The position numbers and the translations under genes are program-made. From the NCBI GenBank assembly GCA_020426845.1, contig JAGQPF010000728.1, positions 1 through 64,000 of the forward strand: a stretch of 64,000 nt of DNA, in the 5' to 3' direction. Shown here piece after piece: positions 2,285 through 8,997 of this stretch. How positions within the stretch are numbered: position 1 is the first letter of the stretch; each line of letters begins with the position of its first letter. Below the pieces are notes generated by a model. That model saw nothing but the letters and a program-made list of their open reading frames with translations, ran no database searches and was not told where the DNA came from. The DNA is from Planctomycetales bacterium. GTDB taxonomy: Bacteria > Planctomycetota > Planctomycetia > Pirellulales > Pirellulaceae.

Positions 2285-2644
2285 TCAACAAGGCTCGCCT
2301 TCTTCAGCGTCCGAGGGCTCTTCGCCCGGAAACAGGACTCCCACCATGAGGGCGCCCGACGCGCACAGAAACGCCCACATGGCGTACGGCTCGCCGGGCG
2401 CGATGCGGCCGCCGGAGAGCCCGGCATAGAACAGCAGGCAGACAGTGAACAGGCACACTTTCGGTGTCGTCGATCCCGATCGGCCGACGATCTGGCCGAC
2501 GGTGAATCCGACAACTCCCATCACTCCGGCGATCATCAAGCCGCGCAGCGTCAGTGCCGTCAGCAAATACATCCGCGCCGCTCCCGCCAATAGGGCGCCC
2601 GCCAAAGTCGAGAGCAGCAGAGTGCGGAGGCTGAAACGCGTCAC
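2285..2644 (-). CDS. Small multi-pass membrane protein, unknown function
   Basis: This 119-residue protein is mostly hydrophobic, with three or four predicted transmembrane segments (RTLLLSTLAGALLAG, GLMIAGVMGVVGFTVG, VCLFTVCLLFYAGL, MWAFLCASGALMVGVLF) and an acidic C terminus. It begins with GTG three bases after the TAA of the upstream dehydrogenase gene, so it is probably translated as the last member of that three-gene operon. I do not recognise a family. A role in anchoring or assembling the cytochrome/dehydrogenase pair is only a guess from position. Confidence 0.6.
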   Translation of the reverse strand: MTRFSLRTLLLSTLAGALLAGAARMYLLTALTLRGLMIAGVMGVVGFTVGQIVGRSGSTTPKVCLFTVCLLFYAGLSGGRIAPGEPYAMWAFLCASGALMVGVLFPGEEPSDAEEGEPC

Positions 2645-2647
2645 GGC

Positions 2648-4216
2648 TTACTCGTCGCGAGGGATGTTGTTCAGCGTGTAATACGCCTCTGGGTGCAACA
2701 GCGGCAAGCCGGCGCCTGAGCGGACACCTTTGGCGTGCAGTTCGTGCACATGCCCGCGTTGCAGCCCGTCAATACGCAGCCGCACCGACAACCCGTCCTC
2801 CGCAACTTCGGCCTTGGCGATTGTCGGCTTGGTGTGGTCGACTTCGGGGCTGCCGTAGGAGGATTGATAGATGTATGCGTACGTCTGCAGTTCATAGGAC
2901 GCAACATCGCCCGCCGACTGGGGATCCACCGGCAGAGTAAACGTCAGCTCGAAGCCGTCCGGCTTGGCCCGCATTTCGTGAATCTCGAACGGTGTCTTGC
3001 CGGTCCAGTCGAGCCGCTGCAGATTGTATGCCTTGCCGCCGCGGGCGCCCCAACCTCGGTTGGTTCCGCCCACGAACATGGCGCCGCTGGCGGACATCTC
3101 CATGCCGAGCGTGCCGGAGTCAAAGCCTTCGCGAAACGGGAAGCAGGCGCCCTGATAACGGCCGGCGACTTTCTCCAAATAACAGCGCATCACCGTGCTG
3201 AACGTCTGGTCTCCTACAAAGAGCTGATTCCGGAACGGACCGAACTTGCCCGCTGTTTGATCGCAAACAATGCCACTCGCCGACTGCCCCATCTTCTTAT
3301 AGGGAAAGAGAATGGCGGTCGGCATCAGTTCGGGGATCTTGTCCGCCTCGGTCATGATCCGGCTGCCGCTGGTGGGCTCGGCAGGCTGCTTGCCCATCGC
3401 CTTCTGAACGGCCTCCAACTCATACCAGCGATTGCCGCCCGTATGCCCTTGAAAGGTCCCGGGAACGAGATGCTTCAAGCCGCAGGTGCCGTTCCACGGC
3501 CCCTGATTGTCCGTGTAGAACATGTCCCCTGCGGCGTTCATGCCAATGCCGCCCGGCGAGCGAATGCCGCTGCACGTGGGAATCAGCTTGCCGTCGGGCG
3601 TGACTCGCACGCACCAGCCGCGATACTTGACGTTGCTGCTAAACGAACCCGTCAAGCACAGCACCACCCACATGTTGCCGTCGGCGTCGAAGTCCGACCC
3701 GAACGCGTACTCGTGATAGTCGCCGCTGATCTCCCAGCCGTCGGCGTGTGACAACACTTGGTCAGCGCGGTCGTCGCCGTTGCTGTCCTTCAGTTTGGTG
3801 ATTTCGCAACGCTGCGTGGCGTAGAGCCAGCCGTCTCGGTAGGTCAGCCCAAGCACCTCATGCAGGCCGGAGGCGAACAGGGAGAACTCCATCGACTCGG
3901 GCTCGCCAGTCGGATTCTTCACCAGGTAGATGTCGCCGCGGCGCGACGAGACGGCGATGCGTCCGTCGGGAAGCGACTCGATGGCGCCGACCTCCAGCTC
4001 GACGTTCGAGGGAATCGGCAGCGTCGTGATCGGGTAGTAGTCATCTTCGGTCGGCGCCGCAGGCTGCGTCTGACCGTAGATGGAGGGCGTCGCGATGAGG
4101 ACGGCGAGCACGAGGCACGAAAACATCACGGCGATCGGCTCGCGCCGAATAGGTGAATAGCTGCCCGGAAGTTGGAGGCGTGCGCGTTGGATTCGAGGCA
4201 TGGGAAGGCTCACCAT
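2648..4216 (-). CDS. Secreted beta-propeller dehydrogenase-like protein (PQQ-dehydrogenase/DUF7133 type)
   Basis: The 522-residue product has a late hydrophobic signal segment ([17 protein letters not shown]) and then a propeller related to soluble glucose/sorbosone dehydrogenases. Visible strings include [56 protein letters not shown] and [20 protein letters not shown]. The C-terminal part is an Ig- or fibronectin-like strand region. The ATG at 4216 overlaps the TGA of the upstream cytochrome gene by a few bases; ATG 4201 or 4126 are alternative starts. Proteins of this type are frequent next to c-type cytochromes in planctomycetes and may pass electrons to them. The substrate is not identified. 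Confidence 0.75.
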
Positions 4217-6930
4217 TTGTACTCTTGTTGGAATTGAATCGTCGCGGACAGCGGGACCAGCAGCTCTTTGCGACCTTGGCTTTCACGCAGCACCGGCTTG
4301 GCGCCGATGATCCGTGTGCGCCAGCGGCCGTCCACCTCGTACCAGCCATCGCTGAGCCGTATATCGCCGACGGCGGCGAGATAATAATGTTGATCGCTGC
4401 CGTCTCTGACCTCGAATTCTCGGCGGACCATCGCCTCGAGGTCGCCCTCGACGCGGAGATAGTCGCTAACGTTGACGCCAGCTGCCCGGTATTGAAAGGC
4501 TGGCCGCAACTCTTTGCCTCGCAATTCGTATCCGCCAAACCGATAGCCGTCCAGCTCGCGCGCCGACTCGGTGGGCCACGCTGCCTGCGCGTCGTCCAAT
4601 TTCGCGAACGCAACATAGTCGCCGAACTTCAGCACGTTCTCCCCGGCCGGAGGCTGGAAGCCTTGGCCACGACCGGTCCAGTGCCGCGAGGCGTCGATGA
4701 ATCGGCCTTCCCACAGCAATGCGAGTCGCAGGTTGTTCGCGTCGAACGCCTGATGAATCTGCTCGGGATAGCCGACGCCAACCGCCCGGGGCCCCGCGTC
4801 CTGAATGAAGTTTCGGTAGATGATCGCCTCGTTGACGGGGATCAGCTCCATGGACTCAGTGACCATGCCTTCGGGAATGCGAGCTCGACTGCCATCCTCG
4901 AGGTACGCCCAAACGGCCGCGATCTGCAGCTCCGAGTGCCCGTCATAAATGTTCTTCAGCAAGCTCGGCTTGTCCAACGGCCAGGCGGTGGGCATTCGCG
5001 TGCGTGGGCGGTAGGCCTGGGGATCTCGGACGTACCGACGGAACCAATCCTTGCGCAATCGCTGCGTCATGATTTGGAAGTCGACGGATTGAATGCCTTT
5101 CGAAGGAAAGCGACCGAAGGGGTGGCACTGCGTGCAGGAGAAGCCGCGAATGCCAACCATCCGCCGGCCGTGCTCCTTGGCCTCGGCCAGCGAGCCGGGC
5201 AGGTCGAGCGGAGGGAGTGGCTCCTGCCGGTCGGCCTCAACGATCAGCGGACGAATCGGGCCCACATTTGGCAGTCCGAATCGCGGCATGCGAGTGTGCA
5301 TGTACGGACGGTCCTTGGCGCCTTCATTCAGAATCTTGTCGATCCAGGCGTCGGTCAGCTTGGCGCCCGCCTCATCGAGTTTGGGCGGAATCCTCCCCTC
5401 GTCGCCCATTTCCTGCATGGTCGTCTGGAACACGGCATCTCGCGCCGGCTCGACGCCGCCGATTTCGCCACGGTTGTGGCAGGCGTAGCAATTGAACGAC
5501 GTCAAGGTTTGATGAATCTGCGTTGCGTTGTCTCCGGCCGGCTGCCGGGTGGCGGCGCGCAGCGCCATCCGCTGCAGGTCGCTCAGTCCGAATTGCGGCG
5601 CCTTGCCGTCGGCACGCTCGCTCAAGCAGCCTTGCTCCAATCGCAGCCGATCCCAAGCGGGCGCCTCCAACGTCGGCTTGGGCAACGGTGAATCTCCGGT
5701 GTCAGCAGCATGGCAGCTGGCGCAGCCGAGCGAGGCAAACAGATCGCGGCCTTGCTTCGCCTTGGCCACGTCCACCTTGAAGGTCAAATCGGGCGCCTCC
5801 GGCGGCGCCTTGGCGCTGGACAGCGCGTTGGACAACGGCTGGCGCTTGATGCCGGGGCCTTCGAACTCGACGGTCAACTTTTCCTCGCCGCCCTGCTCGA
5901 AATACTCCACGACGATCGAGTGCCCGCCGGCCGTTAGCTCGACCTCGCCCGTCTTCGTCGTGAATGGATGAATGCCGGGGACCTCCACCACAACCTGCCC
6001 GTCAATCAACAAACGAGAGCCGTCGTCCGAGCCGATGTGGAACTTGTACTTGCCGGGCGAGGTGATCCGCAGCCCTGACTCGAAGCGAAGCGCGAATTGA
6101 TTGTCTCGCTTGCGGTATGAGACATCCAATCGTTCGGCCTCACCGGTGGCCACGGGCTTGAGCTCCGAGAAGTCGGGCAGCTCGTTCCAATTGCCCTCGA
6201 AGTATTCGTACTGGATTTGCGCGAACTCGGGAGACTTCAGCAACCACGCGGCGATGGAGCGGGCCTCGGGATCGGTCAGATTGAGGCTCGGCATGCGGCC
6301 TCCGGAGCGAACCGCCAAGGGGTCGCGAAGAAAGCGCGTCAACGACGGCAGCGTGTACTTGGCGGCCAAATCGCCCAACGGCATCGTCGTGGGCAGCGTC
6401 TCGCCGTCGCCGGGGAGATGATGGTGGCAGGCCGCGCAGCCCACGCGGAAAAACGTCTGCTCGCCCAGCAAACCGGCGCCGGGAGACGCATACGCCTGCT
6501 GGGGCGGAGCGGGGTTGAGCGACACCAGGAAGTGCGTGAGCGCCTCGGCTTGCTGTTGCCGCTGCTCGGCCGAGCCGGACAACACCGATGGCATGGTGGT
6601 GCCGGGCTTGGCGGCGTGGGGGTCGGCGATGAACTTCAGCAGCCAATCCGCCTTGGCGCGGCTCGCGACCGACTCCAGCTTGGGCGCCGGCTTGGGCTCA
6701 GGAGCCTTGGCGCCGGCATGGCAGGACCGGCAGTTGAGCTCGGCCGCCAACACGCGGCCGTCGACTGCGGGGACGTGATGCTTGTCGCGGACCAAGCGTT
6801 CAAAGCCCGGCACGATCGGCGTGGCCGCAGGAGCATGCTCGGCAAAACTCCAGCCGGCGAGCACGCCGGCCAGCCACAGAGCCGGCAAGCGAAATGAAGC
6901 GACTGCACCACGAGGCGCCGTTTGATTCAT
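4210..6930 (-). CDS. Exported multi-haem c-type cytochrome with PA14-like domain
   Basis: The 906-residue product starts with a signal peptide ([15 protein letters not shown]). It contains five CxxCH haem c sites: C67-RS-CH, C165-AA-CH, C403-AS-CH, C481-YA-CH and C599-TQ-CH. Residues about 240-360 form a PA14-like beta domain ([50 protein letters not shown]), which in other proteins binds glycans. A C-terminal beta-rich domain follows. It is the first gene of an overlapping operon with the propeller dehydrogenase and a small membrane protein. This arrangement suggests periplasmic oxidation of an organic substrate, perhaps a sugar; that is inference. Confidence 0.85.
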
Positions 6931-7152: not shown

Positions 7153-8997
7153 TCAAGCTCGCGAGGAGCCTTCCGGATCCTGATCGGCGTCATCGCCCGA
7201 CGAAGCCGCGGAGTTGATGGCGTGCAAGACGAGGCCCAGCAGGCCGTCGGACATCAACGCCAGTTCGTTCGCGCGCATGGGATAGTGCCCCATCAGCAGC
7301 GCCTGCACGTACAACATCTCAATGCTGCGACGCACCAGCTCGGCGTCCCTCACGCCAGCCAATTGGCGAATCAGTTTGTTGTTGTAGTTCAGGCAAAGTT
7401 GCGAGTGCGCGTGGTCGGTGGCGTCCGCCGCGATGCTCGCCAGCACACCGGACCAGACCTCGTTCGCCACATCCTGTGATTGCTCGATGCTGCGCAGGAA
7501 CGTCGCGCTGCGATTGGCCGTGAACAACGTCGCCAGGCCGTGCGGACTGAATTTCTTCACCTCCACTTGGCAGTGGAACGGCCGCAACGCCTCGTCGGCG
7601 ATGTGGACGAGCGACAAGACTTTGTCACGCTCGGGCAAGGTGAGCTCGCCGAAGCTTTGCGACATCAAGGAGATGTCCAGCTGCTCGACCTCGATCATGG
7701 GGTCGATGTCGGGCAGCTTCCCAATCAGTTCCGTGTCGTAGGTGTAGCCGCCATTGACTACGCAGATCGATTGCGCGGCGGCAACAGCCGAGATTTGACG
7801 GAATTGGTCCGCATCGGGGACGAACAGCACTCGCTTCGTCAACTCGCGAATCTCACCCAGCGTCATCGTGCCCAGCGAGGTCTCCATCGGCAGCCATTCA
7901 GCGAACAGCTGAAAGAACTCGTCATCCTCGACCGCCAATGCTTTTAATGCGAGATAGTGCAGCCTAATCAACGCCTGCAGCCGCGGGCGATCCTCTTGCC
8001 CCAGCTGAACCAGGTAGTTTCGCAGGCACGCGCCCAACGAGCGGCGAGCCTCATTCAGCGTTCTGTCTTCATAAAAGGACTCGCGCGACGCCGTGGGCCG
8101 CAAGGCGTTGGCGTTGACGACACACTTGACGAAAAACGCCCATTCCGGAAGCAAGTTCTCGGCCTGGTCTGACAGCAGCATGCGCTTGACGTACACCCGA
8201 TGCGTGCGTTTGGCCGCCAAGCGGCCCGAGAACGGCAACACGAACGCCACGCCGTCGACATCGCCCGCCGCGGACTCCAATGGGATGTAGTCGAAGAACT
8301 TCGAGCCAAATAGCTGCTCGCCGTATTCCAGGATCGCCTCGTCTCGCTCCGCGGACGTTTCATGCTCGACGCGCCAGGGAGGCGTCTCGGTGATGACCGA
8401 TCGCTCGTCCGCGGTGATCACCTCGATGCGATGCGGCAGCAAGCTGCCGAAGTGGCGAGCGCGATTTCGCACGAGCTCGGGCTCGAAGTACTCCTCGGCG
8501 CCGGGCTTGGCCGTGAGATAAACCTGCGTGCCCGGCGCCATGTCGCGATCGAGCTCGCGGATCGAGTAGGTGCCGTCAGCTCGTCCTCGCCACTCCACCG
8601 CTCGTTGCTTCAAGTCGATTGAGCGAGTGATGACGACAATCTCCTCGCTGACGACAAACGCAGACAGCACGCCAATTCCAAATTGGCCAATGAAGTCCAT
8701 CGGCGCCATCGACTCGCGTTTGGAAGACTGGCCGATGGTTGCCAAAAACCGATGCACTTCCTCGCTGGTCAGGCCGATCCCGTTGTCGATCACGCACAAG
8801 GTCGGCCGCTCGCCCTCCGTCAACTCGAGCGTGATCTCGCCCTCGGCAGCGGGCTCACGCTGTTGCCTGGCGACAACCGCGTCAACGGCGTTCTGCAACA
8901 GCTCCCGGATATACACTTGGGGGCTGCTGTAGAGATGCTGCGAGAGCAAGTCGATGACGCCTTGCAGGTTGACCTGAAATCGATGGTCCTCTGGCAT
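7153..8997 (-). CDS. htpG: Hsp90 family chaperone (short HtpG-like subgroup)
   Basis: The 614-residue protein has the GHKL ATPase domain of Hsp90. The N-box is ELLQNAVDA (residues 32-40), the Mg/ATP loop is DNGIGLT (71-77) and the lid glycine motif is GQFGIGVLSAF (from 104). The middle domain carries SRESFYEDRTLNEAR, equivalent to the client/ATP-coordinating arginine region. The ELLQNAVDA variant (instead of ELISNSSDA) and the length place it in the bacterial 'HSP90 family protein' subgroup rather than with E. coli HtpG. The Asp/Glu-rich C terminus (DDADQDPEGSS) lacks the eukaryotic MEEVD. It is a stand-alone gene; the call is strong, the subgroup is from memory of the pattern. Confidence 0.88.
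   Translation of the reverse strand: MPEDHRFQVNLQGVIDLLSQHLYSSPQVYIRELLQNAVDAVVARQQREPAAEGEITLELTEGERPTLCVIDNGIGLTSEEVHRFLATIGQSSKRESMAPMDFIGQFGIGVLSAFVVSEEIVVITRSIDLKQRAVEWRGRADGTYSIRELDRDMAPGTQVYLTAKPGAEEYFEPELVRNRARHFGSLLPHRIEVITADERSVITETPPWRVEHETSAERDEAILEYGEQLFGSKFFDYIPLESAAGDVDGVAFVLPFSGRLAAKRTHRVYVKRMLLSDQAENLLPEWAFFVKCVVNANALRPTASRESFYEDRTLNEARRSLGACLRNYLVQLGQEDRPRLQALIRLHYLALKALAVEDDEFFQLFAEWLPMETSLGTMTLGEIRELTKRVLFVPDADQFRQISAVAAAQSICVVNGGYTYDTELIGKLPDIDPMIEVEQLDISLMSQSFGELTLPERDKVLSLVHIADEALRPFHCQVEVKKFSPHGLATLFTANRSATFLRSIEQSQDVANEVWSGVLASIAADATDHAHSQLCLNYNNKLIRQLAGVRDAELVRRSIEMLYVQALLMGHYPMRANELALMSDGLLGLVLHAINSAASSGDDADQDPEGSSRA

Follow-up and report, generated by a model that had tools for sequence, protein, structure and literature searches.

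A conserved five-haem cytochrome and propeller protein pair of Planctomycetota as a candidate sugar-oxidizing unit

Planctomycetes break down complex polysaccharides with many genes of unclear role, and one such locus raises the question of what a propeller protein encoded behind a five-haem cytochrome might oxidize. The locus lies in a 64,000-nucleotide stretch of DNA, here called the window, from a Planctomycetales bacterium (GenBank assembly GCA_020426845.1, contig JAGQPF010000728.1, positions 1 to 64,000). On its minus strand are open reading frames (ORFs) for a 906-residue c-type cytochrome (4210..6930), a 522-residue propeller protein (2648..4216), and a 119-residue membrane protein (2285..2644) whose GTG start is 3 bases past the propeller stop. 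A sequence-only reading of the window had described these three genes, the five haem sites of the 906-residue protein and a PA14-like insert between haem sites, all of which were borne out, and had proposed that the three products form one periplasmic oxidation complex. We find that cytochrome and propeller make up a conserved two-gene unit. The pair is probably a cytochrome-linked sugar dehydrogenase, and our best reading, held at a little short of an even chance, is a cytochrome-linked glycoside dehydrogenase that probably oxidizes C3 and feeds enzymes of the DUF1080 family.

Conservation of the cytochrome and propeller genes

Examination of 60 genomes, including that of the window, identified 27 with both cytochrome and propeller, 2 with the cytochrome only (G058, and G001 at a contig end), none with the propeller only, and 31 with neither. 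The propeller was counted at 60% identity or more and the cytochrome at 400 bits or more, fragments included. The two genes were adjacent in 23 of the 27 genomes, separated by no more than 585 bases, and unlinked in the others (G018, G020, G025, and G044). A second sample of 149 genomes across the phylum, searched at E ≤ 1e-100, gave 18 with both, 10 with the propeller family only, none with the cytochrome only, and 121 with neither; the genes were adjacent in 14 of the 18. Cytochrome and propeller are thus not independently distributed in relatives, every propeller genome of the first sample (27 of 27) carrying the cytochrome and every cytochrome genome of the second (18 of 18) carrying the propeller family. 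Among 80 named propeller loci, the best 80 of at least 572, the cytochrome was directly upstream of the propeller in 53 (52 by script, plus L144, which has a long ORF start), and 8 had less than 3 kb of sequence upstream of the propeller. The PA14 region was reached by 46 of the 52 script-paired cytochromes, all 46 having PA14 and five haems; the other 6 ended with their contig. No relative was found in the viral contigs searched.

The genome of the window, a fragmented assembly of 777 contigs with 6.47% contamination, encodes two paralogous pairs, one with six haems (C559) and one with five (C409), and a PA14 domain was detected in neither. It also encodes two single chains with a haem segment or DUF6797 ahead of a propeller, of 860 residues (C39, cut by the contig end) and 1551 residues (C297). 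The latter (L022:2743-7398) combines a DUF7133 propeller with DUF6797, cytochrome c, LamG, and a part resembling a TIM barrel, of which DUF6797 alone exceeded its Pfam cut-off, the DUF7133, cytochrome c, LamG, and TIM-barrel matches falling under theirs. Such single-chain fusions suggest that the two chains of the pair work together.

The sequence-only reading had also taken the genes to overlap. With the propeller start placed at the first ATG (4216), the genes overlap by 7 bases, but this overlap is probably a start-codon artefact. Met31 (4126), the likely true start, opens a normal-looking signal peptide, and the residues ahead of Tyr61 number a median of 36 in 38 aligned propeller sequences versus 60 in the longest ORF of the window. 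Because of that signal peptide and those N-terminal lengths, a gap of about 83 bases between the cytochrome and propeller genes appears more likely than an overlap. Close to the N-terminus of the propeller is a strongly hydrophobic stretch, and the cytochrome begins with what by eye is a signal peptide, although no 19-residue segment there exceeds 1.6. Of the proposed periplasmic complex, an exported oxidation unit of cytochrome and propeller is likely, whereas the small membrane protein fails on its distribution.

That 119-residue protein has four hydrophobic stretches on a simple 19-residue scale, and no family exceeded the cut-off in searches with Pfam and NCBIfam profiles. It had one match in its own genome and, at E < 1e-4, matches in three other genomes of the 60 (G001, G020, and G034), on contigs other than those of the pair; the 3.3 kb surrounding the nearest homologue, in G001, lack the cytochrome and contain by eye RlmN-like and HspQ-like ORFs. 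Searched against all ORFs of at least 60 residues in 127 sources, it matched only itself at E ≤ 0.1. We also examined 100 propeller loci, a set that includes the window and leaves out 7 named duplicates of unnamed loci, paralogue loci, and the cytochrome-only loci L113, L114, L115, L117, L119, L121, and L123. A same-strand ORF of 80 to 200 residues that has at least two hydrophobic stretches and begins no more than 300 bases past the propeller was found at the window only; the test covers every ORF and recovered the window as its control. The complex of three gene products first proposed, in which the small protein would serve as an anchor or quinone link, would fit the 3 bases that separate the propeller stop from the GTG start and the coding-like GC content by codon position of the small gene. 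It is nonetheless extremely improbable, given that the protein is absent from the pair at every other locus examined (0 of 99 other propeller loci) and that its nearest homologue is located away from the pair. We rejected it as a complex subunit on this distribution. The small protein appears to be a local neighbour outside the conserved unit, since no other pair locus examined has it, and it is perhaps co-transcribed with the propeller here.

Two arrangements at other propeller loci differ from that in the window. At five Schlesneria loci (L133, L135, L137, L138, and L194) the propeller has a swapped partner, lying behind a two-CXXCH protein and ahead of a TIM barrel; in L137 this partner is PSCyt1-DUF1549-LamG-DUF1553 by Pfam, and those of the other four loci belong to the same cluster. 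Pairs of small ORFs, toxin-antitoxin-like by eye, lie between cytochrome and propeller at L174:8285-8982, L192:8222-8919, and L210:8511-9100.

Predicted fold and candidate active site of the propeller

The predicted structure of the propeller is six-bladed, with a predicted local distance difference test (pLDDT) score of 87.7, and its residues 56-407 resemble the aldose sugar dehydrogenases that use pyrroloquinoline quinone (PQQ). These provided the best fold matches: 3a9g (Z 29.2 over 301 residues, 3.0 Å), 2ism (28.5), 7cgz (28.1), 7cdy (27.9), 2g8s, the Asd of Escherichia coli (27.3), and 3das (27.1). The next matches, at Z of about 23-24, have Diels-Alderases, AA12, sGDH, and lactonases among them. 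By sequence the protein belongs to PF23500 (DUF7133; 35.5 bits versus a cut-off of 27). The Pfam search returned no match of the propeller to PF07995 (GSDH), DUF7133 being the only family at E ≤ 1, nor did any of the three window proteins match the GMC family. When the propeller alignment was searched against Protein Data Bank sequences, nothing meaningful matched.

A local profile alignment of the propeller with E. coli Asd (YliI) by hhalign, at a low probability of 5.5 and an E value of 0.007, was colinear over the core. Several motifs could be placed by comparison with A. calcoaceticus sGDH, in which His144 is the catalytic base, Arg228 and Asn229 flank the PQQ ketones, and Gly247 and Pro248 hold the catalytic Ca2+ (PMC6881810). 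On the minus strand of the window, Arg92-Arg93 (3938..3943) pairs with Arg-Gly of the YliI RGG segment. Arg219-Ser220-Pro221 (3554..3562), preceded in both proteins by Gly-Ile, pairs with Arg-Asn-Pro of YliI, which corresponds to Arg228-Asn229 of sGDH, and Gln238-Gly239-Pro240 (3497..3505) with His-Gly-Pro, which corresponds to the Gly247-Pro248 site. The invariant His168 (3713..3715) is a candidate, and only a candidate, for the base equivalent to His144. The 35 propellers compared, which include paralogues, all share Arg92, His168, Arg219, and Gly239, and 34 of them share Pro240.

The pair resembles the Asd/sGDH group (PF07995; AA12) in its predicted six-bladed propeller and, as far as the low-probability alignment shows, in its Arg and Gly-Pro motifs and, by analogy, may oxidize sugars with an external electron acceptor. 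It differs in having no PF07995 match, an additional C-terminal part (residues 407-522), and a five-haem partner. The pair is also like the TIGR02604/DUF7133 PVC-type heme-binding CxxCH proteins, in which the same propeller superfamily is joined to haem domains. Here, however, there are two chains, five haems, and PA14 and DUF6797-like domains on the cytochrome, and the TIGR02604 score of the propeller is 40 bits, far under the cut-off of 122.2.

The only assayed TIGR02604 protein that we found is Lac161_ORF7. This protein, with propeller, HEAT, and cytochrome c parts, was made in E. coli and freed glucose from lactose with a Km of 1.8 mM, and its assay description lists no added cofactor (PMC5342196). 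A planctomycete genome has further been described as encoding 18 propeller homologues of Lac161_ORF7, counted with 20 DUF1080 proteins as hidden or putative glycosidases (PMC5352709). On these grounds the propeller might itself cleave glycosides by an internal redox cycle, with the cytochrome merely resetting or regulating it. We consider this improbable. The propeller matches TIGR02604 at 40 bits only, the activity of its distant relative Lac161_ORF7 comes from one study, and a propeller that so strictly co-occurs with five haems would be expected to transfer electrons on balance.

Haem sites and PA14 domain of the cytochrome

The five-haem cytochrome (model pLDDT 84.3) was aligned with its counterparts at 36 named loci, and all 37 sequences kept exactly five CXXCH motifs together with the Ser-Asp-Asp-Gly motif of PA14, for which reason the layout is not a matter of chance. 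The motifs, all on the minus strand, are CRSCH of haem 1 (residues 67-71; 6718..6732), CAACH of haem 2 (165-169; 6424..6438), CASCH of haem 3 (403-407; 5710..5724), CYACH of haem 4 (481-485; 5476..5490), and CTQCH of haem 5 (599-603; 5122..5136). Four methionines are fully invariant, each within a Met-Pro pair: Met113, Met213, Met548, and Met646, downstream of haems 1, 2, 4, and 5, respectively. These are available as ligands for four of the haems.

Haem 3 has no fully invariant methionine before haem 4; instead it is followed by Cys435 (5626..5628), the sole invariant non-haem cysteine, present in 37 of 37 cytochromes and in 36 of 36 in a set including paralogues. A conserved disulfide at Cys435 is excluded because 4 of the 37 sequences have no other non-haem cysteine. 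In the model, Cys435 is 16 residues ahead of the predicted helix 451-462, a position roughly like that of the methionine ligand in class I cytochromes. On sequence grounds, we propose that Cys435 may be the axial ligand of haem 3. Other residues that might ligate haem 3 or 4 are Met508 (36 of 37), Met544 (35 of 37), Met621 (34 of 37), and His321 (36 of 37), and the invariant Lys191, Lys524, and His750 remain alternatives.

The PA14 domain (residues 236-377; 5800..6225, minus strand), which lies between haems 2 and 3, scored 40 bits against PF07691 (cut-off 24; residues 274-363) and contains the invariant Ser301-Asp302-Asp303-Gly304. Its top fold matches were the PA14 domains of RsgI-type anti-sigma factors (Z 16.2 and 15.3), followed by sugar-bound MpAFP structures and 6m8m (14.6-15.0) and yeast adhesins (11-14). 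The model therefore supports membership in a type that includes sugar binders. In fold and motif the domain is like the PA14 of MpAFP, Flo5, Epa, and RsgI-type proteins, but it differs from these in that it interrupts an electron carrier, separating c-type haem domains. That it binds the substrate polysaccharide, as the earlier reading had suggested, is plausible. The C-terminal beta domain (residues 700-906; 4213..4833, minus strand) is DUF6797-like, with a PF20601 match of 18.1 bits that is under the cut-off of 24.9, and its predicted sandwich resembles the periplasmic domain of YidC (5y82; Z 11.5 over 156 residues, 3.3 Å).

One profile pointed to a different function. The cytochrome matched TIGR04485 (SoxX) with 61.9 bits against a cut-off of 61, and SoxX structures were among its weak hits, as might be expected of a generic respiratory cytochrome or of an oxidase acting on something other than carbohydrate, for example on sulfur compounds. 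We regard such a role as quite improbable: SoxX is a small single-haem protein, the best-matching stretch here (residues 66-137) contains one of five haem sites, and the PA14 domain, the sugar-dehydrogenase fold of the partner, and the fusions with glycoside enzymes point elsewhere. The SoxX identity was not taken up, the score being marginal and confined to one of the five sites. Because the NCBIfam equivalog cut-off is narrowly passed, automatic annotation may mislabel the 906-residue cytochrome as SoxX.

DUF1080 partners in relatives and the possible position of oxidation

The suggestion that the substrate is oxidized at C3 comes from the context of relatives, in which DUF1080, a 3-keto-disaccharide hydrolase domain, recurs with both members of the pair. 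DUF1080 is fused N-terminally to the haem-PA14 cytochrome in 8 of 27 sequences (the window and 26 relatives), as identified by Pfam in L107 (PF06439, 116.6 bits) and by blastp to L107 in the other fusions. At 44-50% identity, homology of the fused part to the free-standing DUF1080 genes of L134 and L186 extends over almost all of its length. These free genes are directly upstream of propellers without this cytochrome, in L134 in the order AP_endonuc_2 TIM barrel, DUF1080, propeller, and in L186, in the order DUF1080, propeller, Gfo/Idh/MocA; a propeller paralogue in L129 is fused to DUF1080 and ThuA. DUF1080 genes, all of them same-strand, were found within 1.5 kb at 5 of the 100 propeller loci versus 0.94 expected (Poisson P 0.003, relatedness ignored). 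The expectation is derived from the Pfam model, with 1443 matches in the 401.5 Mb of the 60 genomes and up to 45 candidates scored in each, whereas the observed neighbours were counted with our own four-sequence profile. Regardless of distance, each of the 8 DUF1080 and 11 TIM-barrel neighbours shared the strand of the propeller.

A role of DUF1080 with oxidized sugars has been proposed before. The catalytic subunit of LacABC is an FAD-dependent GMC protein, FAD being flavin adenine dinucleotide, and LacABC passes electrons to cytochrome c; the pair has no counterpart of that subunit and has the propeller instead. A 3-keto-glycoside pathway of Bacteroides, BT2156-2159, has reportedly been described (Nature 2024), and ThuAB has reportedly been studied as well. 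In Caulobacter, DUF1080 is beside the lactose 3-dehydrogenase genes lacABC, with lactose phenotypes, and a role with 3-keto glycosides is proposed there from genetics and context (PMC9007349). The likeness of our pair to this glucoside 3-dehydrogenase lies in the proposed periplasmic oxidation of glycosides and in the proximity of DUF1080 (PMC9007349). Planctomycetes are described as strongly enriched in DUF1080 (PMC5673643). The action of Lac161_ORF7 on lactose also counts in favour of a glycoside substrate (PMC5342196). In the literature searched we recognized no description of the pair or of a propeller-type glycoside 3-dehydrogenase.

In the reading we favour, the pair would be a two-gene extracytoplasmic sugar-oxidizing unit of Planctomycetota. 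PA14 and the C-terminal sandwich would hold carbohydrate near the propeller, which, with its putative Ca2+-type active-site motif, would take hydride from a glycoside; electrons would then pass through the five haems to the respiratory chain. The product would most likely be a 3-keto-glycoside, to be processed by DUF1080 hydrolases or lyases, AP_endonuc_2 TIM-barrel proteins, and Gfo/Idh/MocA enzymes. If the pair makes 3-keto-glycosides, respiration would be linked directly to the breakage of sugar chains, the many DUF1080 proteins would have a partner that accepts electrons, and the PVC propeller-cytochromes would become enzymes open to testing.

A number of results weigh against this reading. 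Within the pair and its relatives, 19 of the 80 named loci have at least 3 kb upstream of the propeller and no such cytochrome. The DUF1080-fused cytochromes form one clade (support 100/99) with the window protein outside it, implying one fusion event and not repeated fusion; 3 of the 5 loci with a near DUF1080 gene are from Fuerstiella; and Gfo/Idh neighbours are hardly enriched, with 3 in 260 kb near and 6 in 779 kb far. The profiles used found no DUF1080, TIM-barrel, or Gfo/Idh match in the window. DUF1080 is also very common, averaging 24 matches in each of the 60 genomes with 41 in that of the window, and its long subtype, present in 58 of the 60, does not track the pair and is therefore uninformative. 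The domain may be a plain glycosidase or binding module: an assay of one planctomycete member identified it as an endo-xanthanase, and there is overlap of the domain with CBM66 (PMC5673643, PMC10881899). The activity reported for Lac161_ORF7 is that of a hydrolase and not of an oxidase (PMC5342196).

The active site contributes further points of this kind. The alignment places the YliI histidine on Ala171, three residues past His168, and matching the two histidines needs a shift by hand. The PQQ-carboxylate contacts of sGDH are Lys377, Arg406, and Arg408, none of which has an evident counterpart in the propeller. Synthesis of PQQ (PqqC and PqqE) was over cut-off in only 2 of the 60 genomes, the window's own not among them; one of the two (G015:C319 and G032:C65) has the pair and the other does not, and among the 27 pair genomes PqqC was over cut-off in 1. 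PqqE-like matches under the cut-off were disregarded because they appear in all 14 control genomes; PqqC matched none of these 14, which thus hold no PqqC positive. Finally, known members of the Asd/sGDH fold oxidize C1 of aldoses and not C3. The propeller has the predicted fold of a quinoprotein, and its cofactor may be scavenged PQQ or something else.

These points bear on a conventional quinoprotein aldose dehydrogenase as the alternative, which would use scavenged PQQ to oxidize aldoses or the ends of oligosaccharides at C1, giving lactones, and would pass electrons to the five-haem cytochrome. The best fold matches are Asd/sGDH, the Arg and Gly-Pro motifs are kept along with a candidate histidine, and E. 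coli keeps an Asd-type enzyme without being known to make PQQ. The scarcity of PQQ synthesis in the pair genomes and the lack of a PF07995 match argue the other way, however, as do the fusions and close neighbours, which are DUF1080, TIM-barrel, and Gfo/Idh proteins (lactonases were not searched for), and we judge this alternative possible but rather unlikely. Since the closest structures oxidize C1 and the surroundings of the window are silent, the C3 position within the favoured reading is also held tentatively, at somewhat less than an even chance.

A more specific form of glycoside 3-dehydrogenase can be envisaged, in which a PQQ-free propeller of the Asd fold would deliver hydride or electrons to a Cys-ligated haem, Cys435 with haem 3, of a carbohydrate-gripping five-haem cytochrome. 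We think such a new class unlikely. If true, it would be an outer respiratory arm of the 3-keto-glycoside pathway in Planctomycetota, replacing LacABC, and would help explain the dozens of DUF1080 genes per genome. The lone invariant Cys435 offers a sharp test of an unusual haem.

The pair is flanked in the window by two further genes. Upstream on the same strand, at 7153-8997, is a gene for a 614-residue protein with HSP90-type ATPase and HSP90 matches. The gene at 806-2260 is convergent and encodes a 484-residue NMT1_3-like binding protein of the TAXI type.

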